Assembly (NCBI GenBank): GCA_033391075.1
Contig: JAWPMV010000001.1
Span: 4,092,001 to 4,156,000 of the forward strand
Length of the DNA: 64,000 nt
Direction: 5' to 3'
Source: Bacteroidia bacterium
GTDB taxonomy: Bacteria > Bacteroidota > Bacteroidia > J057
The notes under the pieces were generated by a model. The model did not search any database. It was not told the origin of the DNA and saw only the letters and a list, made by a program, of their open reading frames with translations. Within the stretch, counting starts at the first letter, position 1. Each line of letters begins with the position of its first letter. A program made the translations under genes and the position numbers. Below are positions 21,185-36,087 of the stretch, in pieces.

Positions 21185-21937
21185 CTAGTTTTTGAATATA
21201 TCTCTATTCGTTCCGGCATTCCCGCCTGTTCCTGGTTTGGAACCCCGGTAACCGAACATGTCGTCATAATTGGTCGGAAGGACCATTGAGAGCAAGAGAT
21301 ACACAAAGATAGAAGCACCACCCGAAGCGAATAGGGAGGCGATGAAGGCAAAACGAATCAATACGGCAGAGATGCCAAAGTAATCCGCAATACCGCCTGC
21401 GACTCCGGAGAATACCCGATTGCTTCTGGAACGACGGAGACCTTTTTGTCTACCGGTCGTGAAGGTTTCGGCTCTTCGATAGTCGGTGCGATTTCGAGTG
21501 CTTCTATAAGAATTTTCAGTAGAGCGATCCTGTGTACGGGAACGACTCTTTTCTTCGTTTCTTGGGGGTGGCGGAGGTGCCGGTTTTGTCTTACGATATA
21601 CGTTAAGTGCCGGGAAATTGAGTTCTTTCTTGCGGAAAGCGAGTCTCATGGTTTTGAAAAAACCATATCCCAGTGCAAGGTATCCGATTACAGAAAGGAT
21701 GGGTACAAGCGCTTCAAAGAGATCCCCGATAACGGGAACCGTTCCTGCAAAGATGGTCGTAACCAGGAGACCGGCTCCTGCTACCAGCGCCATCATACCT
21801 GCAGCCCCTAATTGCGTACCCTGATCTTTAGCGACCTCTTCTTCCGCTTCTCTGATCTTTTCTATGTCATCATACATCAAAGAGGTGTCGAACTCTTCGA
21901 TTATGCTACTTCTTCTTCTTGATCTTTCTCTGGCCAT
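21185..21937 (-). CDS. PspC domain-containing membrane protein
   Basis: 250 aa. The N-terminus is cytosolic and acidic, followed by two hydrophobic segments (~44-72 and ~76-100), a basic Arg/Ser/Thr-rich linker (~115-165) and a C-terminal PspC domain (RSNRVFSGVAGGIADYFGISAVLIRFAFIASLFASGG, then a membrane helix FVYLLLSMVLP). PspC domains act in envelope-stress signalling. It is first gene of the PspC-71aa-FtsE-LAS peptidase-LytTR run, with gaps of 4 to 26 bp. Confidence 0.88.
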   Translation of the reverse strand: MARERSRRRSSIIEEFDTSLMYDDIEKIREAEEEVAKDQGTQLGAAGMMALVAGAGLLVTTIFAGTVPVIGDLFEALVPILSVIGYLALGYGFFKTMRLAFRKKELNFPALNVYRKTKPAPPPPPRNEEKSRSRTQDRSTENSYRSTRNRTDYRRAETFTTGRQKGLRRSRSNRVFSGVAGGIADYFGISAVLIRFAFIASLFASGGASIFVYLLLSMVLPTNYDDMFGYRGSKPGTGGNAGTNRDIFKN

Positions 21938-22086: not shown

Positions 22087-22196
22087 CGTGTTGGAGTGTT
22101 AGGGTGTTAGCGTTTTAGAGAGGGTGTTCAGGTGTTCTTGTATTCTCGTGTTCTGGAAAAATCACTAGAACACGAGAACACCAGCGCACTATAACA
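22087..22196. repeat. Dispersed intergenic repeat, copy B
   Basis: GTGTT-containing words recur on the left (GTGTTGGAGTGTTAGGGTGTT at 22089 onward, GGTGTTCAGGTGTTC at ~22124) and AACAC words on the right (22167-22196), forming a long imperfect palindrome. The core 22151-22181 matches copy A at 29 of 31 bases. It lies immediately downstream of the CHAT gene end (22189, minus strand). Confidence 0.7.
22143..22178. terminator. Perfect 12-bp hairpin downstream of CHAT protein 1
   Basis: TTCTCGTGTTCT (22143-22154) pairs with AGAACACGAGAA (22167-22178), loop of 12 nt (GGAAAAATCACT). It is the centre of repeat copy B and begins 11 bp beyond the CHAT stop on the minus strand. There is no clear T-run, so it may be a repeat structure acting as a terminator or mRNA 3' stabiliser. 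Confidence 0.5.
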
Positions 22197-25100
22197 CTTT
22201 CTTTTGGCTGCTATATCTTCTTAATACTGCATAGATCACGAGTAATAAGAAAAAGCCTATGGCCAGCATCCACCAATTCTTTTCGAACCAATTGTCTTCG
22301 ACGATGGGTTTGTCATCTCCGATGAGGGTAAAGCCTGCCCAGTAGAAGGGGTGGGCGTCAGCATGTTCGTTTAGATAATCAAGTTTGGCGAGTTGGAGGG
22401 CTTCGTCTTTGCCTTTGCCATCGGCGAGGTGCTGGTAGAAGCTTTCCATGAGGCGACGGGTAGCCGATTCCTGCACTTGCCAAAGGGACATGACCGTATT
22501 CGGACTACCGGCATGTGCAAAGGCTCGGGCCAGGGACATGATCCCCTCCCCTGCCTGGATTTTGCCTAAGCCCGTTTGGCAGGCTGACATAACGACCAAT
22601 TCGGCATTAAGTCGCATATTGTAGATCTCATAGGCATGGAGTATTCCTTCATTAGTTGGGTTGGTGCTATCAGATATTCCAGCAGCCTCCAGCATCGATC
22701 GAGGTGTGAAAGCCAAACCGGAATACATAGGATCACAATCATCTGTAAATCCATGCATGGTTAAATGAAGGATACGATAATCATTGGCTATCTCTTTGAA
22801 GCGGGCTTCGCTGGCATTGAGGGTATCGAAGCGGGTCCCATTTATATTTGCCAGAATTTCATCCAGTTCCTGGCTAGACTGCGCTAGGTCTACGAAATCA
22901 TCTTCATCAGGAAGTTCACATGTTTCTCCTCCTGCACTTTTAAAGGCTTGCACCAATTGGGATTTACTCATATAGGAAGGGGCAAAGGCAGCCATTAGGG
23001 CTTTATCTTCTGTTTCCTTGTCTTCCAGCAATTTCATCAGGGTAGCTGAGTAGGCCTGACGGATACTGAATTTCTTCATAAGAAATGGATAGCTGCGATA
23101 GTCGTAGATATCCTGCGGATACTCAGTCAATAGAGCATCCCAGGGAAGATAGCCAAGCTTGCCATCGGGAACGATGATGAGTTGGGGTTTTCCTTCGTGA
23201 GTAATTGGTTTTAATGAGTCCAGCAGCGGTTCTACAAGCACTTGGTACAAGTCATGAGCCTGCTGTGCATAATAGCTTCTAAATTCTTTATCGCTCTTGG
23301 GGGTAGTCTTTGAGCTCAGGAGAAATTGGTTTAATTCTACGTCGAAGTTTTCGGGTAAGTTGAGCTTTTGGAAGCTGACATCATCGCGATTGATGGCGAA
23401 GGCGTAAAGGGCGGTGTCTGTGCGGAAGTATTCGAGAAGGGTTTCTGAGGGAGAAAGGGTGGATTGGAGTTCCCCAAGGGAGATTACTTTTGTGTTGTAT
23501 TTGGAGCGTGCGAAGGCGGGGTGGGTTTCATTTAAATTTTCAATGATTTTATCATTTCGCTGGTGATAGTAATGAAGACTATCTTTGATTGAATTCTTAT
23601 TTAACTCCGTTTTAGAGAATCTTGAATCATCGAATTTTAATAATGACTTAAAATACAGAATTTTAGCTTCCAGGAAATGTAATTCATTCTCAATTTCATC
23701 GTTGGGCAAGAAGGTGGAAATCTTGCTCAATTCATTAAGATTAAGATATAAATCATTTGATTTAGCCTTTTCAGAAAACAAGAAACTTTGGTTCAATATT
23801 TTTTTGATCTCCTTTTTATTAGAAATTTCGTAGCCAGCCCAAATACCAATACCGTATATTTCTTTTCTTCCTTCCAGAAATGTAAACCTGTCCCTACCTT
23901 GATTAATTACCAATTTCATAGAATCGATAACTTGATCAGCCAGGGAACTTACTTTCATACTCTTTTCTAGAAGATCATAAGATTTATGGAATGTGTATGA
24001 TCGAGATAGGATTTTCGCCTTCATTTGGAGCGATAATAAAGAGTAAATATCTATGTCTTTCTCTTGTATATATTCAGACATAGATGGATAATTTTTTTCG
24101 AACTCTAAAAATTCAGTATCAACTAAACTTTTGTCAATATAGTTGACTGCGGAATCATAGCTTTCTATGTTAAAAAAGGCAGAAGAAATTCTTTCATCCA
24201 AGACCTTCTCTCTAAGACTTTTTTTCCCATTTGATGCTAGTAAAGATTTTGCCTTTTTATATTCTTTCAATGCCCTATGAAAATCATTCTTCAACAAGAA
24301 CAGGTCTCCAAAATACTGATAAAGCAAAGCTTGCTTAGGTTTATTTTCTATAAAATCCTTTGAGTATTTATATCCATCTAATGCCTTATTCAAAAATTGT
24401 TCTCCCTTATCTGTTTCTGCAGATTTTATAAATTTCATTGCAATTGTAAAATCAAAATCGGGAATCAATTTTGCCATATTGGGGCTAGATTTCAAAATCT
24501 CACTAGCTTCTTGGTAGTATCCTAAAATTTCTTCTATTTCCGTATGACCATAAGGAAGGTTTGCTAAATTTTGGAGAATTCTCAGTTTCTTATTTTTGTT
24601 CTTTTCAAAACCCAAATTCTCATACAGCCTAAACGATTTCTGGAATGCTTCTTTTGCCCTGGTAAAATTGTTTTGACTTAACCATGCATATGCGGAATAA
24701 TTAAGAATTTCGGCTTCTTTTGCCTTGGATACTTTCCTTGTAGAATAAATTTCATCGCTCCTTTTAAATGCCTTTAATGCAGCATAAGGTTTTTGTGAAT
24801 AAACCATATTCATGCCCAAATCTTGAAAGTACCTAGCCTTTCTAGGAGCATTCTCAGGGAAAAAATTTATAAGAATAGAATCTATTTTGGATAGATAATA
24901 CCGTGATTCTCTATACTTTCCCTTTGCAAGATATAACCATTGAAGTTTTGACAACAAATCAACTTCCAATGCATTTCCATAACTAGAATTTATAGGGAAG
25001 AACTCAATTAAATATGCAACATCCTCTATTTTTGTAATAACCTCATTTGAAATATTGTGTGAAATTTTAAGGTATTGACTCTTTATGAATTCGAGCGAAT

Positions 25101-25539
25101 CCAACCTATCCATCCCCATATTTAATTTAATCGCCAGGTTTATTTTTTCAATAGAACTGCTCCAATCTTGATCTCGAAGTGCTAGTCGTGCCTGATGATT
25201 AATATGTCTTATTAATGAAGAATTGGCCGTACCTTTACTTCCATCTGTGTTAGTTGATTTAAGCAGGCTATCTATAACATGGGTTCTACCCAATTCGAAA
25301 CAAGTTTCAATATAATTTTGAAAAGCTTCTTCACGATCGATTTTGGTGTTATTATCAATTGAGAAAAATTGTGCATAATGGTGATACGCACTGTCCCACA
25401 TGAATAAGTTGAAATATTCACTTGCTAATTCAATATTTGAATTAGAAACATTTAACAATTCCTTATCGTCCTGGGTATTCTCAGTCAGACAAGAAATAGT
25501 CAAAATCAAGAGTCCTGCTAAAAATACTCTAAAAGACAC
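22189..25539 (-). CDS. Exported TPR-CHAT (caspase-like) protein 1
   Basis: 1116 aa, GTG start (25539-25537) sharing its G with the TAG stop of the upstream lipoprotein gene, so it is translationally coupled. The N-terminus looks like a lipoprotein signal (LLILTISC, Cys17). Residues ~40-600 are helical TPR-like repeats. Residues ~700-1075 are a CHAT peptidase domain with candidate dyad His929 (LTMHG) and Cys987 (VVMSACQTGLG), then HPFYWAGFTLIGD. A C-terminal membrane helix (~1085-1105) is followed by a basic tail. CHAT proteins are caspase/separase relatives. The gene's last ~1.3 kb has normal GC while its 5' two-thirds is AT-rich. Confidence 0.9.
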   Translation of the reverse strand: MSFRVFLAGLLILTISCLTENTQDDKELLNVSNSNIELASEYFNLFMWDSAYHHYAQFFSIDNNTKIDREEAFQNYIETCFELGRTHVIDSLLKSTNTDGSKGTANSSLIRHINHQARLALRDQDWSSSIEKINLAIKLNMGMDRLDSLEFIKSQYLKISHNISNEVITKIEDVAYLIEFFPINSSYGNALEVDLLSKLQWLYLAKGKYRESRYYLSKIDSILINFFPENAPRKARYFQDLGMNMVYSQKPYAALKAFKRSDEIYSTRKVSKAKEAEILNYSAYAWLSQNNFTRAKEAFQKSFRLYENLGFEKNKNKKLRILQNLANLPYGHTEIEEILGYYQEASEILKSSPNMAKLIPDFDFTIAMKFIKSAETDKGEQFLNKALDGYKYSKDFIENKPKQALLYQYFGDLFLLKNDFHRALKEYKKAKSLLASNGKKSLREKVLDERISSAFFNIESYDSAVNYIDKSLVDTEFLEFEKNYPSMSEYIQEKDIDIYSLLSLQMKAKILSRSYTFHKSYDLLEKSMKVSSLADQVIDSMKLVINQGRDRFTFLEGRKEIYGIGIWAGYEISNKKEIKKILNQSFLFSEKAKSNDLYLNLNELSKISTFLPNDEIENELHFLEAKILYFKSLLKFDDSRFSKTELNKNSIKDSLHYYHQRNDKIIENLNETHPAFARSKYNTKVISLGELQSTLSPSETLLEYFRTDTALYAFAINRDDVSFQKLNLPENFDVELNQFLLSSKTTPKSDKEFRSYYAQQAHDLYQVLVEPLLDSLKPITHEGKPQLIIVPDGKLGYLPWDALLTEYPQDIYDYRSYPFLMKKFSIRQAYSATLMKLLEDKETEDKALMAAFAPSYMSKSQLVQAFKSAGGETCELPDEDDFVDLAQSSQELDEILANINGTRFDTLNASEARFKEIANDYRILHLTMHGFTDDCDPMYSGLAFTPRSMLEAAGISDSTNPTNEGILHAYEIYNMRLNAELVVMSACQTGLGKIQAGEGIMSLARAFAHAGSPNTVMSLWQVQESATRRLMESFYQHLADGKGKDEALQLAKLDYLNEHADAHPFYWAGFTLIGDDKPIVEDNWFEKNWWMLAIGFFLLLVIYAVLRRYSSQKKVL

Positions 25540-26354
25540 TACTCGTAAAATTCAATAAAATTCAGGATTTCGGGTATTTTCGAAGAATTGCAACGTATTC
25601 TCAAAAAGGAACTCTCATTCATCTTAATAATATAAGTCCTGATAAAGGTCTGATGTTCAAGGTAAAAGCCCTGGGTACTAAGTCCATTAGGACCTTTCAA
25701 ATCATAATTGACATCTACCCTGACTGGCTTAGGGTTAATATTATTATCAATTTGAATTTGATGATCATAATAATCTCGGATTTGGGTAAAAGCATCTGAG
25801 ACTCCTAAACTGCTATAATCAAACTTTGCAATAGTTATCCCGCTATCTGCATCAGCTTTTTGAAAATTAAAGTAAAGCAAATTCCCAGTTGGTATTGATT
25901 CCTCATTATTCACTTCATTTAATTCAAAAATAGACGCATAGATCCTTTCTGCATTTTCAGGATTGGCATCATGGTAGGCATCTCCACCACCTGGAGGAGG
26001 AGGTAAATTACAAGCAGGAAGGCCTTCATCAGGGCTAGCATTGCCATTTACAAAAATACCGGTGACTAAGGTATCATGTCCAATAAATGTATTATAATCC
26101 ACACCAACGGCTAATAATTCTCCACTCCATACATCATAAAAATTCCCCAAATCTCCGTAACAATCTTGGGAAGCTTCAGGACATTGTATGTTTCCACTTT
26201 CCATGCAGATCCGTAGTTTCACTGCAGGTGTATCAGGAAAACACGAAGTCTCACAATCTCCACAACACGTGCAGGATGACAAAATCCCACTGACTAATAA
26301 AACAATCAATAGGTTTTTATATCCCAATTTTACAAACTTATTTTTTGATTCCAT
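25539..26354 (-). CDS. Cys-rich lipoprotein of unknown function (CHAT operon)
   Basis: 271 aa from ATG 26354; the longer frame to 26375 begins with TTG and is less likely. Lipobox ILSSC is followed by a cluster of cysteines (CTCCGDCETSC). A proline/glycine stretch PPPPGGGD lies in the middle. The mature part is beta-rich and acidic with no family I recognise. Its stop overlaps the CHAT start by one base, and its start overlaps the preceding gene by 17 bp, so the three are one operon. Probably an outer-membrane lipoprotein partner or substrate of the CHAT protein (inference). Confidence 0.75.
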   Translation of the reverse strand: MESKNKFVKLGYKNLLIVLLVSGILSSCTCCGDCETSCFPDTPAVKLRICMESGNIQCPEASQDCYGDLGNFYDVWSGELLAVGVDYNTFIGHDTLVTGIFVNGNASPDEGLPACNLPPPPGGGDAYHDANPENAERIYASIFELNEVNNEESIPTGNLLYFNFQKADADSGITIAKFDYSSLGVSDAFTQIRDYYDHQIQIDNNINPKPVRVDVNYDLKGPNGLSTQGFYLEHQTFIRTYIIKMNESSFLRIRCNSSKIPEILNFIEFYE

Positions 26355-26886
26355 TGTAGTATGATTTTTTAGCAAAGTCGAAATTATCGGGGATCAATTT
26401 ATCTGATTGAAGCTGTTGAATGAGATTGTTAATGTATTCAATCAATATTGGATCCTGAGTTTTTCTCTTGGTTTTAGACAAATATTTACCATTGTAATTT
26501 GCTTGTATAGCTGCAATGGCTGTGATAGCTCTCAATCTTGCGATCTTATTGATATTATTAAGGTTTTCTATCGGAGATATAGGAGAAATTTTCAAATCAT
26601 TACTGTTGACCCAATCAATAAATTTAAATGAGATTATTTGGTATCTCTGATAAATATTTGCTATTAAATGTCGTGGCAAACCATACTCCACAACATCTTG
26701 CAAAAACGGAATGGCATCCTCCCCAAGAAGAAGAATCTGGTTTAACTCTCCATCAAGACATTCCTCACAAAGCAAAAATGGCATTGAATTACGTTCTATC
26801 AGACTTTTGTCTAATGGAACTACTTTTTTACTACAAGAGATTAAACTTATAGAAAACAGAATTACAATTGAACAGGTGAATTTCAT
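26338..26886 (-). CDS. Lipoprotein of unknown function (CHAT operon)
   Basis: 182 aa; signal peptide with lipobox SLISC (Cys near residue 18). The mature part is mostly helical (GEDAIPFLQDVVEYGLPRHLIANIYQ; IARLRAITAIAAIQAN), faintly like HEAT-type repeats. No family recognised. It starts 3 bp after the metzincin gene's stop and overlaps the next lipoprotein by 17 bp. Confidence 0.72.
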   Translation of the reverse strand: MKFTCSIVILFSISLISCSKKVVPLDKSLIERNSMPFLLCEECLDGELNQILLLGEDAIPFLQDVVEYGLPRHLIANIYQRYQIISFKFIDWVNSNDLKISPISPIENLNNINKIARLRAITAIAAIQANYNGKYLSKTKRKTQDPILIEYINNLIQQLQSDKLIPDNFDFAKKSYYNGIKK

Positions 26887-26889
26887 GTT

Positions 26890-28740
26890 TCAGTTATTGA
26901 GCCCAACACATGGACACTCTTTGTCATACCGATAAAAGGTATCAGTATGCCATTCTTCACAAGCACGACACGCTTGATTAAGCCTTAATCCATTAAGAAT
27001 TAGCGAAGAATATGGTTTTATGTTCATTCGCGTTATTTGCCCTAAAGTAAATTCAAATCTCCCGACAGCTCCCGAATTCATGAAATTATCGGAAACTGTA
27101 ACATTACTAATACTGTTATATTCACAATCTAATACCCCACTTGCTCCAATATGTTCTAAGCCGAAACTATGACCAAATTCATGAGTAAGTGTCTCGGAGA
27201 TAGCATTCCGAACATCAATGATTATTATATTTTCAAAAATATAAACTCCTCTTCTAGAAGCTGGAACAGTTCGCGTGATAGGATTATTATTATCATCTAA
27301 TGCTGAAATAGTAGAAGGAGGATGCAAATAATATACATTCAGTGCATTTTCAACAAAGTGGTTTGTCAAGCTAAATGTGTTTTTGAATTGTCTTTCAATA
27401 AGAGGCCTACGAGGATTACTAGCATGGTAAATAAGACTACTAAGCTGTTCCATTAAATTATCATCATCTACATTGGTGATAACAGCATTATTTACTACTC
27501 CTCTAAGATTGATTCCCGTTTGATATCTCTCGAAATTACAAGCTGCAAGCCCAAATTCCGAACTTATTTTTGAACTCCTATCTATTGATATTCCCATAGG
27601 AGTTACATTAAATAACTTAACTACTGGTTCATGCCTAGGTTTGAGGCTGATATAATAACTTCCATTAAGGCCACTATTTAAGGTCACGTGGCAAAGCTGA
27701 TTTTTTCGATTATAAATGAATAATTCAGTGTTCGGCCTATCTGATTGTAGGTTTGGGACATTAAAGAAATAAATTACTTTTCCTGGATTATTAGATTCTA
27801 TATAGTGAAATGGCCAATACAAATTATCATTAAGATGATTTCCGTTTGAATCATAACCATCGATCGAAAGAGTAGGCCTGTAAAAGTAGTTATCTGGATT
27901 TGGTAAAGGATTGGCCATGTTGAATGGAGTGGCCTCTACGCAAATGAGACTCCTAAAATAAAAAGGTCTAGGTACTGGAATTAATATTCCCAATAGAGGA
28001 ATCGAAAAAGGTAAAATCATCCGGGAAATACATGATCGAGCCCCGTCTCCACCTAATAAAGAAATTAAAGACTTCAGGGTAGTGTAATCATTCTCCGTAT
28101 AACCTGGAAAGAAAAAAGAATTTAGTTGATCCTTAAATTCATACTCGATAGAATAGTTACCAACTTTTTCAGCCTTATATAATTGCTCAATATTAAATAT
28201 AAAATTTTTGTATGAATTCTCTGAGTCTAAAATCCTAGGTACTAATTTTATATCAGCAATAACTGGGAGTAACCTTCTTTTTCCAACTATATGGCTTAAA
28301 GCAAGAACTTCCTGCTTGTTACTTTCATACAGACTCGAATCAAGCTTGTTTATTTCGATTTGTTTGATACCCTTAACAACAGTTCTTCCCTCTTTTATTA
28401 ATAGTTTTGTATTACTTAAAATCTTATAATTTCCTGTCAAAATTAGTTCATTAAAACTAAAACCAGGAGTCCTTCCAAAATCCAGAACTAAGGAATCAAT
28501 AAGATTAATTACGGAATCAGTAGGAGGTTCGAAATTAATCACCCAATCTAGTTCTGTTTTATGACTTAATGGTTTCAGGCAATATTCACAGCCCCATACA
28601 ATTGCTCGAGATTGATTATGAACTAAAGTTAAATGTTCAGGAAATAAAGAATTCGTATAAGATTGAGAAAAAACTGGCTGCCCTAGAAATAGCATAACTG
28701 TTACTATTATTTGGCAAAATCTTAGAACAAGTAATTTCAT
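26890..28740 (-). CDS. Secreted metzincin-type metalloprotease
   Basis: 616 aa; signal peptide at residues ~1-25 (VTVMLFLGQPVFSQ). A zinc motif HExxHxxGxxH is present at His520-His530 (HEFGHSFGLEH), with a candidate Met-turn at Met554 (NFMNSG), the metzincin arrangement. The ~490 residues before it are unassigned, largely beta-strand-like. The C-terminus has a Cys cluster (ACRACEEW, ECPC). It is first gene of the operon leading to the two lipoproteins and CHAT protein 1, and is divergent from CHAT protein 2. Assignment to M10, M12 or M43 cannot be made by eye. Confidence 0.8.
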   Translation of the reverse strand: MKLLVLRFCQIIVTVMLFLGQPVFSQSYTNSLFPEHLTLVHNQSRAIVWGCEYCLKPLSHKTELDWVINFEPPTDSVINLIDSLVLDFGRTPGFSFNELILTGNYKILSNTKLLIKEGRTVVKGIKQIEINKLDSSLYESNKQEVLALSHIVGKRRLLPVIADIKLVPRILDSENSYKNFIFNIEQLYKAEKVGNYSIEYEFKDQLNSFFFPGYTENDYTTLKSLISLLGGDGARSCISRMILPFSIPLLGILIPVPRPFYFRSLICVEATPFNMANPLPNPDNYFYRPTLSIDGYDSNGNHLNDNLYWPFHYIESNNPGKVIYFFNVPNLQSDRPNTELFIYNRKNQLCHVTLNSGLNGSYYISLKPRHEPVVKLFNVTPMGISIDRSSKISSEFGLAACNFERYQTGINLRGVVNNAVITNVDDDNLMEQLSSLIYHASNPRRPLIERQFKNTFSLTNHFVENALNVYYLHPPSTISALDDNNNPITRTVPASRRGVYIFENIIIIDVRNAISETLTHEFGHSFGLEHIGASGVLDCEYNSISNVTVSDNFMNSGAVGRFEFTLGQITRMNIKPYSSLILNGLRLNQACRACEEWHTDTFYRYDKECPCVGLNN

Positions 28741-28990
28741 TGGGCAAGTTATTAGAAGGGGGATATATTTAAATTATCCAAAATTTATGGACATTCACAA
28801 CTTCCCATTCACAAACTCAAAATTTAGAACAAAAAAAAAATTGGCCCTAACACATCTGTATCAATATTTCAAATAATCGGCTTGCCATAAATTCCAGATA
28901 GTGCTACATTTGTTTAGTCTACAAAATTATCCCGCCGTTTAAATATTAGCTTTTCCCATAGCTGGTCAAGTAACTTAAACTTTAGCAATC
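28741..28990. other. AT-rich divergent promoter region
   Basis: The 250 bp between the metzincin (-) and CHAT protein 2 (+) genes is AT-rich with a run of nine or more A at ~28831. It holds a plus-strand promoter at 28882-28912. I found no consensus box on the minus strand. Confidence 0.6.
28882..28912 (+). promoter_or_regulatory. Promoter for CHAT protein 2
   Basis: TTG at 28882-28884 and a perfect TACATTTG at 28905-28912, separated by 20 nt. The transcript would begin near 28919. Confidence 0.6.
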
Positions 28991-31900
28991 ATGCCTAAAA
29001 ATGCTATTGCACATATCCTATGGGAAAATGCAAACATGAGTCCGACCTTTGGACTGATGTTAATTTTTACTTTTGTAAGTTTTAATTATTCATTTTCCCA
29101 AAATAACTTCAAAAAGTCTTGCGAAGACTATTACCTGGGAATAGATGTCCCTAATTCTAAGCAACCCATATTTCTTGATGCATATGCGGAATTAAGTAAC
29201 GCTCAAGAAAGCAAGGAAAAAGTTGATTTTGACAGATACATGCTTGCTCTTGAAATGGACTTAGATACTTTAAAGTCCTTAGGCTGTTGGGAAGGATATA
29301 GCCGAGCTCTTCAAACACTTGGAGCCAGTTATTTGTCAATGGGTGCTTACATGAATGAGTTTGAGAAAGCAAAAGATTATTTAGACGAAATATTTACATT
29401 AGATTCATTAAAACTTCATTCTTCGCATCCCATTCGAACTAGCTCGGCTTATTATTTGGCTCAATTTTATGAGAGAACTTACCAAGCTGACTCCGCAATT
29501 AAATTTTTTAAGATTTGCCTTCAACATTATGGAGGAAATATAGCTAATAAAGGATTAAATATTTCCCTGATACATTTTGGATTAGCTCAAGTATATTTAG
29601 AATTAAAGCATAACATAGTAAAAGCCGAAGAACATTTTGAGAAATTTCTTGAAACAAGAAGGCATCCAGAATATGATACGTCAAAGGATTTAAGCGGATA
29701 TCACAATATTTACAAATTAGAAGGTTATCATAATTTTGCTAAAAAATATTTTATAATTGGAGATTATGATAAGGCTCTTTCATACACCTACAGATTTAAA
29801 GACTCACTTTCCATTCACCCCTTTAATATTGAAATTCGAAAAATCTACGCATCTAAACTGCTAGGAGAAATCCATTTTAAAAAAGGGGAAATTGAATTTG
29901 CCTATGAAAACTTTTTGCAGGCCAAGGAGTATTTAAAAAAATCTCCAAACTACTATAAGTCATCTTCTCTTGATTATTTTTTTATTTCACTAGGGATTTC
30001 AAAAATCCATACAGAAAATAATTCCTTCAAAGATGCTAAAAGCTCTCTCATTGAGGGAATGAAAATTCTAACAAAAGAAAACAATCCAGATAATAAGTTT
30101 CATGCAGCCTTAGGCCTTCAACAACTTGCTTACATAGAATTTTTATCGAATCAATATGAAAATTCTATGAAATCCATTGATAGTTGCGACCAACTATTAG
30201 ATCAATTTGAAATTGTGAGCGCAGATCTCAAAAGTAAAAATCTAATCCTTAGGAGTAAGATTTTGGAAAAGCGAGGTGATCTTAAAAAAGCATTAACGCT
30301 TATTAGCAAAGCTGAAAAAATGCTTACGGATAATTACTTTGAAGAGTATAATCCATACAAAAATATACTTTTAAAAGTATATAGCAGGAAAGCAAACCTC
30401 TTATGCCAGCTTGCTCAATATGGTTCTCTGGATCAAAACATGCAAAAGGAGGCTATTGAATACTACTTTAACGCAAGTACGATTTTAAAAGACTATCTCT
30501 ATGAATTAGAAAGAGAGAATAGTCTACTCGAATTAAAACAAAGTTCTTATGAACTTTTTGAAAATGCTTTAGCTTGTATTTGGTCAAATTATCAACATAA
30601 TCCAACGGAGACATTAGCTCAAAAAGCTTTCCTTTTAATGGAAAGAAGTAAAGGATCCGCTTTAGATAGGAAGTTAGTTGAAAAATATAACAATAGGCTG
30701 CTACCAAATATAGACGAGAAAAATAATCGAAATCTTCAAAAGGAATTGGCATTTCACCAGGCCCAATTGACAAAATTAGATCCCGCTGAAGATTTTTATG
30801 AACGTGAATACAGACAAATTTCTCAACGGATACTAGAGCTTGAAGAGAAATTAAACCATATTACCAAGCCCTCTAAAAAGCTTTATTCCTATGCAAATGC
30901 AGGAATAGTCGACTTCACCCAAATGTTAAATAATATAACTAAATCTGATTATGAGAATATTTTATCTTTCTACTGGGGAAAAAAATCCCTCTATAGGATA
31001 TTCTATAATTCCGATAAGGGCTTTACCTTCTATAGAACTGATAATATTGAAGCCTTGAAAACAGAAATCCTCAGACTTAGAAATGTCTTTCTAAGCTATA
31101 AACCAAACAAGGATGCAAGGGTATTACAGAATTCGTATATAGATTTCACAGAATCTGCTTATTCACTTTATAAAAGCCTGTTTGAAAATATTGAGTTGAA
31201 TAGAGCCAAAGAAAAAAGTGGAATTTTAATCCTCTCGGACGGACCTTTAGGAGTCATTCCTTTGGAGGTTTTGCTAACACAAAAGCCTCCGAAACAATTT
31301 TCCGGTTATAATGACCTTTCATATCTTGTTCGAGATTTCAACTTACACTATGCGCCATCGTTTTCATTCTTAATGAATGAAAACCTAATAAAAACAAAAT
31401 CCCAGAAATCTGAAATCCTGGCATTTAGTTATTCAGGAGAAAAAGCAAATTTCAACAAGGTTTATGCATCAATAAAACGTGGGGGGAAACTTGAAGATTT
31501 ACCAGGTTCCTATGCAGAGCTTCAAAGTATCTCCAAATATTATGATGGTTCATATCATATAGGTAATGAGGCGACTAAATCTCAATTTTTTAAGCAAGCG
31601 GGGAATTATAGCGCCTTGCATCTTTCTTTACATGGAGGTTGGGACAGTTTAGATTTCCCTTATTTGGTATTTCCTACCAATGACGCTTCAACAGATGTAG
31701 ATTTTCTGTATTCTTATGAATTAGCAGGTTCCGGGCTAAAAGCAAATTTAGCAGTTCTTAGCGCATGTGAATCAGGCCTTGGGTCTTATATTTCAGGAGA
31801 AGGAATGCAGAGTATTGCAAATAGTTTTTTAGGCGCGGGATGCAGCTCTGTTATTTTTAGTTTATGGAAAGTTGATGATAAATCCACCTCTGATTTGATG

Positions 31901-32203
31901 GAATTCCTCTACCATAATCTTAGTCAGGATAAAGAGATGAATGATGCATTATCCCAAGCCAAAAGAGACTTCCTAAAAAATACCGACCCCTATATTTCTC
32001 ATCCTGCAAACTGGTCTTCTTTTATACTTTATGGGCAAAAGAAGCCCCTTAACCAAAATAGTTGGATGTATCAGCTTCCCCTTTTTCTTTTGATTTTCAT
32101 CTCAACCTTAACTCTTATCCTTGGGATGTTATATCTACAAAAGCAAAAAAAGATAAGTACAGCTAATTCCCGGTCTCTATCCAACCCCTTCGAATTGTTA
32201 TGA
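28991..32203 (+). CDS. Exported TPR-CHAT (caspase-like) protein 2
   Basis: 1070 aa; an alternative start at Met16 (ATG 29036) gives a cleaner signal peptide (LMLIFTFVSFNYSFSQ). Residues ~60-560 are TPR repeats (ADSAIKFFKICLQHYGG, GDYDKALSYTYRFKDSL, GDLKKALTLISKAEKML). A helical linker (~570-640) and a CHAT domain (~690-1025) follow, with candidate dyad His881 (LSLHGG) and Cys926 (LSACESGLG). One C-terminal membrane helix (~1035-1055). Its architecture matches CHAT protein 1, but they diverge outside the catalytic blocks. It converges with the lipoprotein gene at 32163-32723, overlapping it by 41 bp. Confidence 0.9.
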   Translation: MPKNAIAHILWENANMSPTFGLMLIFTFVSFNYSFSQNNFKKSCEDYYLGIDVPNSKQPIFLDAYAELSNAQESKEKVDFDRYMLALEMDLDTLKSLGCWEGYSRALQTLGASYLSMGAYMNEFEKAKDYLDEIFTLDSLKLHSSHPIRTSSAYYLAQFYERTYQADSAIKFFKICLQHYGGNIANKGLNISLIHFGLAQVYLELKHNIVKAEEHFEKFLETRRHPEYDTSKDLSGYHNIYKLEGYHNFAKKYFIIGDYDKALSYTYRFKDSLSIHPFNIEIRKIYASKLLGEIHFKKGEIEFAYENFLQAKEYLKKSPNYYKSSSLDYFFISLGISKIHTENNSFKDAKSSLIEGMKILTKENNPDNKFHAALGLQQLAYIEFLSNQYENSMKSIDSCDQLLDQFEIVSADLKSKNLILRSKILEKRGDLKKALTLISKAEKMLTDNYFEEYNPYKNILLKVYSRKANLLCQLAQYGSLDQNMQKEAIEYYFNASTILKDYLYELERENSLLELKQSSYELFENALACIWSNYQHNPTETLAQKAFLLMERSKGSALDRKLVEKYNNRLLPNIDEKNNRNLQKELAFHQAQLTKLDPAEDFYEREYRQISQRILELEEKLNHITKPSKKLYSYANAGIVDFTQMLNNITKSDYENILSFYWGKKSLYRIFYNSDKGFTFYRTDNIEALKTEILRLRNVFLSYKPNKDARVLQNSYIDFTESAYSLYKSLFENIELNRAKEKSGILILSDGPLGVIPLEVLLTQKPPKQFSGYNDLSYLVRDFNLHYAPSFSFLMNENLIKTKSQKSEILAFSYSGEKANFNKVYASIKRGGKLEDLPGSYAELQSISKYYDGSYHIGNEATKSQFFKQAGNYSALHLSLHGGWDSLDFPYLVFPTNDASTDVDFLYSYELAGSGLKANLAVLSACESGLGSYISGEGMQSIANSFLGAGCSSVIFSLWKVDDKSTSDLMEFLYHNLSQDKEMNDALSQAKRDFLKNTDPYISHPANWSSFILYGQKKPLNQNSWMYQLPLFLLIFISTLTLILGMLYLQKQKKISTANSRSLSNPFELL

Positions 32204-32723
32204 TTGAATCTGTAATATTATATTCTGTGTAATGAATACTTCCAAAAGGTCCAGCCGAAGTACTACGGAAATTCCCTGTAGGAATAAGACTCCTGTCTAA
32301 ATCGGGAGTTGGTATTATTTCTGCGGTGATTATAATTGGCTCCCAAAATGGAGCCATTCCAGGATCACAAATTGGAGGTTTGGGTTTAGGAAATTTCAAT
32401 CCTGCAACTTGTAAATAAGGGCTATATTCAGCTCTAATTTGCTCAAGCGTTTTACCATCAGGTCTATCCGTATATAAGGAATGAGGTATTCCATCATCGG
32501 TACTATTGCTATTGATTATTTTGTATTTGATTTTGCTAGTCTGGAGACTTTTGTCTCCAGGGAAAACACCCACAACTTCTATTTTCTTCTGTTTTATTAG
32601 AACAGTTAAAGGATAATTTAGCTTACTATCCGGATCTTTTGCCGGAAGAAAGTCTGTAATGTAAGGAGTACATGAGCTAAATAAAACTAAAAAGCTCAAA
32701 AGGAATATCTTTGAATTTTTCAT
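32163..32723 (-). CDS. Lipoprotein of unknown function in the sigma-factor operon
   Basis: 186 aa; lipobox LFSSC (Cys18). The mature chain is beta-rich and proline-rich (FPKPKPPICDPGMAPFWEP). No recognised family. It begins 3 bp after the TPR membrane protein, so it is the third gene of the sigma/anti-sigma-like operon. Its last 41 bp overlap antisense with the end of CHAT protein 2. Confidence 0.7.
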   Translation of the reverse strand: MKNSKIFLLSFLVLFSSCTPYITDFLPAKDPDSKLNYPLTVLIKQKKIEVVGVFPGDKSLQTSKIKYKIINSNSTDDGIPHSLYTDRPDGKTLEQIRAEYSPYLQVAGLKFPKPKPPICDPGMAPFWEPIIITAEIIPTPDLDRSLIPTGNFRSTSAGPFGSIHYTEYNITDSIITIRRGWIETGN

Positions 32724-32726
32724 CTC

Positions 32727-33551
32727 TTATTTCAAATTTTGCATTGATAAATTTAGTTTCTCCGATCTTATTTTATAAGGCCCATCCTCGCTTGCTAATT
32801 TCTCTAAAATAGATCTTGCACCGGAAAAATTGCCTTCTTTTAGATATACCAGAGCCAAATACCAATTGGCATCTTGAATATATTTTCCATCAGAATTATT
32901 ATCGAGATATAGCTCAAGATCATTAATTGCAGATTCATATTTCTCCAGTTTCAATGAAGCCATAGCACGATAGAATCTCCCGATTTTTAAACTGTCATTT
33001 CCTGAATCAATAAAAACAGCAAGTTCTTTTGATGCAGCTTCAAAATTGTCTCTGGAATAAGTCTGTAAAGCATCGAATAGTAAAGAATCCAATGGATTAT
33101 CCTGAATTACTGTAGGATCGGCACTCCTTCTAGGCTGTGTGGTTTCCTGGTTACTGAGGTGTCTATAATTTTCAGCAAATAGCTTATCATTCATATTTTC
33201 ACCAGAATTAGCCATCCACCACACCCCCACACAACACACCAGAAAGAAAGCAACCGCAGCAGCCAGCTTCGCAGGCTCACGATACCATACCAAAGGCATC
33301 ACAACGGTGGGCCTCTCAAGGCCAGATTCAGTATGGGTAGAATCAGTATTCTCATCAGGTGTATTAACTACCGTGCTATCTTCCTCTAAAGCCTCTCCTA
33401 CAATTTCGCCCAGATAGATCTGTTGTTTTAGTTGTTCAAGAAGTTGAGGGTTGCGGCTGAGTTCAGATTCGAACTCCCGTTTCTCCTCGGCGCTTACTTG
33501 CCCGGCAAGGTATTTCTCTCGGAACCTGAAAGTATATTTAACGCTGTCCAT
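32727..33551 (-). CDS. Membrane-anchored TPR protein, anti-sigma-like
   Basis: 274 aa. The cytosolic N-terminus (~1-90: YLAGQVSAEEKREFESELSRN) resembles the zinc-free N-terminal regions of Bacteroidota anti-sigma-like proteins. A single membrane helix (~93-113: AKLAAAVAFFLVCCVGVWW) is followed by a periplasmic part with three or four TPR-like units (AASKELAVFIDSGNDSLKI, YESAINDLELYLDNNSDGKYI). It lies 13 bp after the sigma-like gene. This arrangement suggests a membrane sensor that holds the sigma factor; the inference rests on gene order and topology. GC falls sharply in the part of the gene encoding the periplasmic domain. Confidence 0.72.
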   Translation of the reverse strand: MDSVKYTFRFREKYLAGQVSAEEKREFESELSRNPQLLEQLKQQIYLGEIVGEALEEDSTVVNTPDENTDSTHTESGLERPTVVMPLVWYREPAKLAAAVAFFLVCCVGVWWMANSGENMNDKLFAENYRHLSNQETTQPRRSADPTVIQDNPLDSLLFDALQTYSRDNFEAASKELAVFIDSGNDSLKIGRFYRAMASLKLEKYESAINDLELYLDNNSDGKYIQDANWYLALVYLKEGNFSGARSILEKLASEDGPYKIRSEKLNLSMQNLK

Positions 33552-33564
33552 TACTCTTAGGGAA

Positions 33565-34257
33565 TTAGTAGTTTGAATTGGGAATCAGAAATGAGAGAAG
33601 CTTGTCCAGGTGTGAGATGGCTGCATCGCGTGCCGCTTCGAAACTGCTGTATCCTAGCTGCTTCAATTTGGCCGCATGCTTTTCCCTGAATTCCTCCGCA
33701 TACCATTCACGCCTGCGTTTGGGATCAAAAATTTTCAATAGGACGCGAGCCTCTTCTCCCAGAGATGCGATAAATAATTCTCTGGCCTTTTTCCTGCACT
33801 GATTGGCCCGGCTGTTGATTGTGTCTTCGGTGAGCTTGAGGGTCTCTGCCAATTGACGGGAACTCTTTCCCTCGGCCTTTCCCTGGAGAATTTCTAAACA
33901 ATTGCTGCCACTGGCTTTAAGATTTTCATGAATGAAAGTCTTACGTTCGGATTCCAGCCGTTTATTCAACTCAAGAACCGGATCCTCATAAAATGCCATT
34001 TCCACTTCCGCTGGCAATTCATCCGTAGTATAGGGTTTGCCCAATAGATTCCGGACAAGGTTTCTACAAATGCCAAAAGCATATCCTTTCTCCGATTCTA
34101 TCACTTTCACCTGCCCCTCATTGCGCTTTTTATGGTACTCCAGATAGGCATCCGACAATATATCATCGGCATCCAGTCTGCGTCCGGAATACTTGTGCAC
34201 AAATCTCTTGACGGCAGAACGAAAGTCCTCATCTGTAAAAGGATTATAATCCTCCAT
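33565..34257 (-). CDS. Sigma-70-family RNA polymerase sigma factor
   Basis: 230 aa. Region-2-like segment at residues ~10-75 (FVHKYSGRRLDADDILSDAYLEYHKKR ... KGYAFGICRNLVRNLLG) and a region-4 helix-turn-helix at ~118-160 (GNCLEIL-type start, GKSSRQLAETLKLTEDTINSRANQCRKKARELF). It is ECF-sized, but a C-terminal ~60-residue extension (FDPKRRREWYAEEFREKHAAKL) is unusual. It heads an operon with the TPR membrane protein and a lipoprotein. Its likely regulon includes the nearby CHAT and metzincin genes (inference). Confidence 0.82.
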   Translation of the reverse strand: MEDYNPFTDEDFRSAVKRFVHKYSGRRLDADDILSDAYLEYHKKRNEGQVKVIESEKGYAFGICRNLVRNLLGKPYTTDELPAEVEMAFYEDPVLELNKRLESERKTFIHENLKASGSNCLEILQGKAEGKSSRQLAETLKLTEDTINSRANQCRKKARELFIASLGEEARVLLKIFDPKRRREWYAEEFREKHAAKLKQLGYSSFEAARDAAISHLDKLLSFLIPNSNY

Positions 34258-34620: not shown

Positions 34621-36087
34621 ATGCCTCAAAAGAAAGCCATAGTAGTAGGTGCAGGAATTGGTGGATTAGCCACATCCATTCGCTTGAGATCAAAAGGATA
34701 TGAAGTAGAAGTTTTCGAAGCTTCTGAGAAAGCCGGAGGGAAACTCAATCAAATGGAGGAAAAAGGTTACCGATTTGATATGGGCCCCTCTCTATTTACC
34801 CTGCCAAAAGAATTGGATCATGTCTTTGAAACGGCTGGCAAAAATCCCCGAGACTACTATGATTACGAAAAGCTGGAACTTATTACCAAGTATTTTTATG
34901 AGGATGGTACCCAAATAGATGCCTGGGCAGAGCCTCTGCGTTTTGCCAAAGAACTCGAAGAAAAGACGGGCGAAACTGCAGCAAAGGCCTTGAAGGTATT
35001 GAAGAAAAGTTCGGAGATTTACGACATCACTTCCCATGTTTTCCTCGAACGTTCCCTCCACAAACTCAGCACCTACCTTCGAAAGGATACCCTGATCTCT
35101 ATTTTGAATTTGCATCGCATCGACTCCATGCGAACCATGCATAAAGCCAATGCAAGTCAATTCAATGATCCACGTGTCGTACAGCTTTTCGACCGATATG
35201 CTACCTATAATGGTTCCAATCCCTATGAAGCTCCTGCAACCCTGAGGATCATTCCCCATCTCGAATTCAATATCGGTGCCTATTTTCCGAAAAAAGGAAT
35301 TTATGCCATTCCTACTTCCTTATACAGTCTCGCTACTGATTTAGGGATAAAGTTTCATTTCGGAGAAAAAGTGGATGAAATTCTGGTAGAGGATAAAGCA
35401 GTTAGAGGGATTCGGATAGGCGAAAACAAGCATGAAGCAGAGGTGGTAGTGAGCAATATGGATGTCGTGCCTACTTACCGGCATTTGTTATCCAGTCAAA
35501 AAGCTCCGGAAAAAATTCTGACCCAGCCTCGTTCCAGTTCAGCCCTTATATTTTACTGGGGAATAAAGGATAGCTTCCCTGATCTGGATTTGCACAACAT
35601 TTTCTTTAGCCAGAATTACCAGGAAGAGTTTCGATATATCTGGGAAGAAAAAAGCATCTACGAGGATCCAACCATTTACGTCCACATCAGCAGCAAATGT
35701 GAAAAAGGAGATGCACCTGCAGGCAAAGAAAATTGGTTCGTCATGATCAATGTCCCCGCCAATCAGGGACAGGATTGGGAAAGTCTGATTTCAGCTGCCA
35801 GAAAAAACATCCTCTCAAAACTTTCCCGCATGCTGGGAAAAGACATTGAATCGCTGATAGAGTTTGAAGATCGCCTTACTCCCGAACTTATAGAAAGCCG
35901 AACCTCCTCCTATCAAGGTGCCCTTTACGGTAACAGCTCCAACAACAAATTCGCAGCTTTCCTCCGTCATCCCAATTTCCACCGCAAGATCAAAGGACTA
36001 TACTTTGTCGGAGGTAGCGTACATCCCGGCGGAGGAATTCCCCTCTGTTTGCTTTCAGCTCGTATCGTCGGAGATTTAATTGAGTAA
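34621..36087 (+). CDS. Carotenoid desaturase, CrtI/CrtD-like
   Basis: 488 aa flavoprotein. N-terminal dinucleotide-binding motif GAGIGGLATSIRL (residues 9-21) followed by an acidic strand end (VEVFEASEKAGGKL). It has the carotenoid desaturase C-terminal signature (GLYFVGGSVHPGGGIPLCLLSARIVGDLI). Length is normal. It may be phytoene desaturase (CrtI) or, because no crtB, crtY or crtZ is nearby, the 1-hydroxycarotenoid 3,4-desaturase CrtD often found alone in Bacteroidota. Sequence alone does not decide. It acts at the membrane in pigment synthesis. Confidence 0.85.
   Translation: MPQKKAIVVGAGIGGLATSIRLRSKGYEVEVFEASEKAGGKLNQMEEKGYRFDMGPSLFTLPKELDHVFETAGKNPRDYYDYEKLELITKYFYEDGTQIDAWAEPLRFAKELEEKTGETAAKALKVLKKSSEIYDITSHVFLERSLHKLSTYLRKDTLISILNLHRIDSMRTMHKANASQFNDPRVVQLFDRYATYNGSNPYEAPATLRIIPHLEFNIGAYFPKKGIYAIPTSLYSLATDLGIKFHFGEKVDEILVEDKAVRGIRIGENKHEAEVVVSNMDVVPTYRHLLSSQKAPEKILTQPRSSSALIFYWGIKDSFPDLDLHNIFFSQNYQEEFRYIWEEKSIYEDPTIYVHISSKCEKGDAPAGKENWFVMINVPANQGQDWESLISAARKNILSKLSRMLGKDIESLIEFEDRLTPELIESRTSSYQGALYGNSSNNKFAAFLRHPNFHRKIKGLYFVGGSVHPGGGIPLCLLSARIVGDLIE

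Follow-up and report, generated by a model that had tools for sequence, protein, structure and literature searches.

The window, by which we mean the whole 64,000-nucleotide stretch analyzed here from the 9.5-Mb genome of a Bacteroidia bacterium, contains a locus of eight genes, whose open reading frames all lie where a preliminary description of this DNA had placed them. Three of them form an operon on the minus strand, headed by the gene for a 230-aa ECF sigma factor (33565..34257). It is followed after 13 bp by the gene for a 274-aa membrane protein with a TPR domain, a putative anti-sigma factor (32727..33551), and then by that for the 186-aa lipoprotein LP3 (32163..32723). The plus-strand gene for CHAT2 (28991..32203) is convergent with this operon, and its end overlaps the end of LP3. 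On the other side of CHAT2, a divergent intergenic region (28741..28990), presumed to contain both promoters, leads to a second minus-strand operon encoding a 616-aa metzincin-like secreted protein (26890..28740), the 182-aa lipoprotein LP1 (26338..26886), the lipoprotein LP2 (25539..26375; a 278-aa ORF with the likely start at ~26354), and CHAT1 (22189..25539). LP2 is coupled to both LP1 and CHAT1, with overlaps in both gene pairs. All three lipoproteins bear lipoboxes, and LP1 matches no family above the cut-off. The divergent region and the coupled lipoproteins had been recognized in the preliminary description, but its layout has to be corrected in that, of the two CHAT genes, CHAT1 alone shares the metzincin operon, whereas CHAT2 converges on the sigma operon from the opposite strand. 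The locus is flanked by genes for CrtD, a carotenoid desaturase, and for a membrane protein with a PspC domain (window positions 34621-36087 and 21185-21937); neither seems to be part of the module.

Both CHAT1 and CHAT2 score far above the Pfam cut-off of 24 bits for the CHAT domain (PF12770), with 196 bits (E 1.2e-57) and 153.5 bits (E 1e-44), respectively, and both carry TPRs upstream of this domain. Their His/Cys dyads, His929/Cys987 in CHAT1 and His881/Cys926 in CHAT2, are intact exactly as had been claimed, and the two residues (CHAT2 numbering) are invariant across 76 aligned CHAT proteins. We thus regard CHAT1 and CHAT2 as TPR-CHAT proteins and predicted peptidases. The AlphaFold2 model of CHAT2 (mean pLDDT 83.9) shows a caspase-like domain preceded by a long TPR superhelix and followed by a C-terminal helix; His881 lies beside the strand 873-879 and Cys926 just past the strand 920-923. 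Foldseek matched the model to separase, Csx29 (with Csx30) and DdvA. When the CHAT-domain profile was compared with the PDB, convincing matches were obtained only for DdvA (8rot, E 8.9e-7) and Csx29 (E 4.6e-5 to 5.5e-4), the last match (E 2.1) being noise. In Myxococcus xanthus, DdvA acts as the anti-sigma factor of DdvS, an ECF sigma factor, and the signal inactivating DdvA was unknown in 2015 (PMC4374960). Csx29 cleaves Csx30, which inhibits an ECF sigma factor (PMC10028731).

The earlier claim that both proteins possess an N-terminal export signal and a C-terminal membrane helix also held. The signal of CHAT1 contains a lipobox-like TISC, and in both proteins the hydrophobic helix is followed by a positive tail. 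An export signal is present in most CHATs examined and a C-terminal helix in 82 of 122, with the tail being more positive in 73 of these 82. The predicted topology supports the proposed periplasmic location: TPR-CHAT proteins are most likely periplasmic and usually anchored in the inner membrane via the C-terminal helix. In total, 36 CHAT matches were found in this genome. Many of the further CHATs are short, lack a signal peptide and start with a sequence like '(V)IFLAFAND' (L036:5641-10125, L038:3508-9774, L042:8648-11172). They adjoin nSTAND-type NTPase-like proteins starting with '(S)PFKFLDxY...FFGR' and constitute a separate, cytoplasmic CHAT family of many copies. Another TPR-CHAT paralogue in this genome (L033:3273-10040) has lost both catalytic residues, adjoins a T9SS-secreted subtilase and has no sigma pair; it is perhaps a pseudo-protease. 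In a relative, three TPR-CHAT genes lie nearly in tandem (L083:2009-12503), with no sigma pair within the 19 kb examined.

The domain matches of the 230-aa protein identify it as an ECF sigma factor, with 44.6 bits for TIGR02937 (cut-off 42.9, E 1.1e-11) and 25.3 bits for Sigma70_r2 (cut-off 24). The 274-aa protein is composed of a helical anti-sigma domain (residues ~8-58), a transmembrane helix (~93-115), a linker and a TPR domain (153-271), and its structural model (pLDDT 83.5) shows the same helical N-terminal domain, single transmembrane helix and TPR domain. The reading of this pair as sigma and anti-sigma factors was upheld by the family of the membrane TPR protein: among its 69 sequences, 54 matched the NCBIfam anti-sigma model NF052375 (best E 1.1e-12), and 24 matched PRK13920. 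The match of the window member itself is weak (E 6.5e-4, 19.8 bits, below the curated cut-off of 100), and it is as a member of this family that we consider it a putative anti-sigma factor. A profile of the N-terminal region gave weak PDB matches to 3hug (0.0065), which we take to be the SigL/RslA pair, to the separately solved anti-sigma domain of DdvA (0.25), to RsrA (0.89) and to RskA (1.2). Because positive residues in these proteins accumulate on the N-terminal side of the transmembrane helix, the N-terminus is predicted to be cytoplasmic and the TPR domain periplasmic. Together with the export signals and C-terminal helices of the TPR-CHAT proteins, this topology implies that the two proteins most likely share the periplasm.

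A search of the genome with the membrane TPR protein returned paralogues near TPR-CHAT genes, and mapping the CHAT neighborhoods revealed nine loci with a sigma factor, a membrane TPR protein and a TPR-CHAT protein. The sigma factor of the window shares only 13-27% identity with those of the other loci, which makes the modules old copies. All nine strong anti-sigma genes of this genome lie near a CHAT gene, against 0.26 expected. As the profile used had been built from the same nine genes, the decisive linkage test is the one made outside this genome. Of the 51 anti-sigma genes in four well-assembled relatives, 32 had a strong CHAT gene at a distance of 10 kb or less (3.3 expected), and 25 had one at 5 kb or less (1.8 expected). 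A neighborhood survey across Bacteroidota, proposed in the preliminary description, thus found the association of CHAT and sigma genes to be non-random, with the sigma factor linked in relatives. Abundant CHAT and sigma genes could meet by accident, as the 36 CHAT matches in one genome might suggest, but an excess of about ten-fold or greater that recurs across the phylum contradicts this, and we give coincidence hardly any credence.

Of the 83 membrane TPR genes in the survey, 67 come immediately after a sigma gene, at a median gap of 3 bp and with 61 of the 67 at 30 bp or less; 66 have a CHAT gene within 9 kb, and 55 have both. The 55 triads are arranged convergently (23), divergently (21) or on the same strand (11), and the named scan and the maps place triads in Saprospirales, Chitinophagales, Cytophagales, Bacteroidales, Flavobacteriales and other Bacteroidota. 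In some Bacteroidales loci (L101, L135, L158), the CHAT gene lies between the sigma and anti-sigma genes and is read in the opposite direction to both. Seen from the CHAT side, 61 of 128 CHATs longer than 700 aa have a sigma pair within 9 kb, which is a minimum, as many contigs are short or end nearby. The catalytic His and Cys are kept in all 62 sigma-linked CHATs, and they are lost in just 2 of 66 unlinked ones, which is not a significant difference. Several loci (L045-L048, L050, L052, L053, L067, L079) harbor TPR-anti-sigma genes, nearly all with a sigma gene, and have no CHAT nearby. Such pairs may control other outputs or work with a CHAT in trans.

The remaining genes of the window did not recur in this way. 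The metzincin-like protein was called a secreted metzincin in the preliminary description; it does contain the HExxHxxGxxH motif (HEFGHSFGLEH, residues 520-530) and a downstream Met, but its score for Pfam M43 (22.8 bits) falls just below the cut-off of 23. It had no match in 60 relatives, 12 of them of the same family, and neither LP3 nor LP2 had a match in the 40 relatives searched for each. The idea that the metzincin, three lipoproteins and both CHATs act as one dedicated proteolytic cascade, which the coupled operon metzincin-LP1-LP2-CHAT1 and the shared divergent region had made attractive, is thus very improbable, also because the partner genes at other modules are unrelated secreted proteins that differ from module to module. 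We rejected the exact gene set as a conserved system. The core that does recur comprises the sigma factor, the anti-sigma factor and the TPR-CHAT protein, with the other genes of the locus being local extras.

The genes between sigma and CHAT at other modules nevertheless have features in common: 40 of 45 look exported, compared with 66 of 201 background genes, and 40 of 45 lie on the CHAT strand. Among 38 intervening genes scanned, 15 encode a T9SS sorting domain and two are subtilases; others contain PKD, lipase or adhesin-like domains. These observations could indicate that the CHAT protein is an output of the circuit. The TPR domain of the anti-sigma factor would sense an envelope signal alone or via another protease, and the freed sigma factor would induce the CHAT protein and its secreted partners, several of them proteases or T9SS cargo, for action on other targets in the periplasm or at the surface. 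That the CHAT gene often lies outside the sigma operon, in divergent or convergent orientation to it, fits such an output. However, dyad enumeration upstream of sigma and CHAT genes found no convincing shared sigma promoter motif, nor was one found in the divergent region (28741..28990). Moreover, both solved relatives tie the CHAT domain to the anti-sigma side of the circuit, DdvA by fusion and Csx29 by cleavage. We therefore prefer a role as trigger and consider the output role unlikely, although it deserves serious weight.

An exported CHAT protein may thus form a switch together with a sigma factor and the membrane protein inhibiting it, so that a protease acting beyond the inner membrane turns on genes inside the cell. 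We predict, with a probability of roughly 0.45, a three-gene switch in which the TPR-CHAT protein is the trigger that cuts the anti-sigma factor. In the resting state, the ECF sigma factor would be held in the cytoplasm by the single-pass anti-sigma factor with its periplasmic TPR domain. Some periplasmic or surface event would activate the TPR-CHAT protein, which would then recognize the TPR domain of the anti-sigma factor and cut its exposed periplasmic linker in a site-1 cleavage. The remaining stub could be degraded, for example, by an M50 site-2 protease, a gene for which is present in this genome. Release of the sigma factor would finally induce the locus together with its locus-specific secreted proteins. 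We infer the binding, the cleavage, the order of events, the signal and the target promoters of this scheme. Counting against the switch are the 19 of 51 anti-sigma genes in the four relatives without a nearby CHAT gene, the 67 of 128 long CHATs without a sigma pair within 9 kb (in part owing to contig ends), the negative search for a common promoter motif and the low NF052375 score of the window anti-sigma factor. A conserved Arg in the anti-sigma linker was considered as the CHAT site and rejected, as it is just as frequently met where anti-sigma proteins have no CHAT and does not discriminate between the two groups. A phage or defense context was rejected as well: there was no PADLOC defense assignment, and no relative of the anti-sigma factor was found in viral contigs.

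The evidence for coevolution is mixed: anti-sigma and CHAT trees are uncorrelated in this genome (rho -0.10, P 0.63), which also speaks against the switch, whereas a correlation is seen overall as well as in a second genome (rho 0.69, P 0.001). As a tentative extension, the paralogues could constitute a parallel, envelope-facing, caspase-like family in which each CHAT cuts its own anti-sigma factor and the secreted products of each locus, frequently cargo of the T9SS or proteases, serve as baits, ligands or effectors. This would be a receptor-like array built on a split version of the DdvA and Craspase logic.

Known systems provide parallels for the module. RseA/DegS/RseP likewise involves a single-pass anti-sigma factor with a periplasmic domain, an M50 protease is encoded here too, and we propose a periplasmic site-1 protease; that protease is a PDZ serine protease there and a candidate CHAT peptidase here, where the sensor domain is a TPR. 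Class I anti-sigma factors of the RskA, RslA and RsrA type share the helical N-terminal domain and the closely coupled ECF sigma gene but differ in having no periplasmic TPR. According to a survey, only 6% of Bacteroidetes ECFs adjoin class I domains (PMC7406223). If the switch is true, the phylum, in which few ECFs were found beside a known anti-sigma type (PMC7406223), would gain a concrete candidate for the site-1 protease.

The preliminary description knew of no system with this exact set of genes. Indeed, no exported CHAT-sigma module was described in the literature searched for CHAT with sigma or anti-sigma factors, a scope that did not extend to subscription papers, preprints and the main ECF classification paper; the relevant matches were papers on Craspase. 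The claim has to be narrowed, however, because CHAT is already tied to the control of sigma factors both in Craspase (PMC10028731) and in DdvS/DdvA. Craspase (Csx29/Csx30/CASP-sigma, type III-E CRISPR) resembles our module in uniting a TPR-CHAT protein, a sigma inhibitor and an ECF sigma factor in one locus (PMC10028731), and Csx29 is among the few PDB matches to the window CHAT by both sequence and fold. Craspase is, however, activated by RNA via Cas7-11 and is cytoplasmic, whereas here the CHAT proteins have export signals and the anti-sigma factor is a membrane protein. A PADLOC scan of the eight window proteins found no Cas7-11, gRAMP or CRISPR effector, with only marginal CARF matches to the sigma factor.

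DdvS/DdvA (PDB 8rot, 8rw5, 8rlz), the best PDB match, likewise combines an ECF sigma factor, a transmembrane anti-sigma factor and a related CHAT domain; our statements on DdvA are based on PDB titles, profile matches and PMC4374960. In DdvA, the anti-sigma, transmembrane and CHAT parts are joined in a single chain, whereas here the anti-sigma factor and CHAT are two separate proteins, the CHAT protein has its own signal peptide and C-terminal anchor, and many paralogous modules exist per genome. No CHAT ORF with an anti-sigma domain, as in a DdvA-like fusion, was found in the loci examined. The single chain of DdvA, and the TPR domains that CHAT and the anti-sigma factor both carry in the same compartment, could suggest that CHAT is a sensor or holder binding the anti-sigma factor, with catalysis used for self-processing only or not used in signaling. 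The strict conservation of His and Cys in the sigma-linked CHATs makes such a holder distinctly improbable. Csx29/Csx30 has been viewed as a CRISPR specialty and DdvA as a lone anti-sigma factor of myxobacteria whose trigger was unknown. If the split, exported form is widespread in Bacteroidota, caspase-like sigma control would be a general mode of bacterial signaling. The link of CHAT to sigma control was known from DdvA and Craspase; what sets this module apart is a CHAT protein that is both split from the anti-sigma factor and exported. Overall, we read the module as a split, exported member of the DdvA/Craspase theme, with a CHAT that probably cuts or gates the anti-sigma factor.
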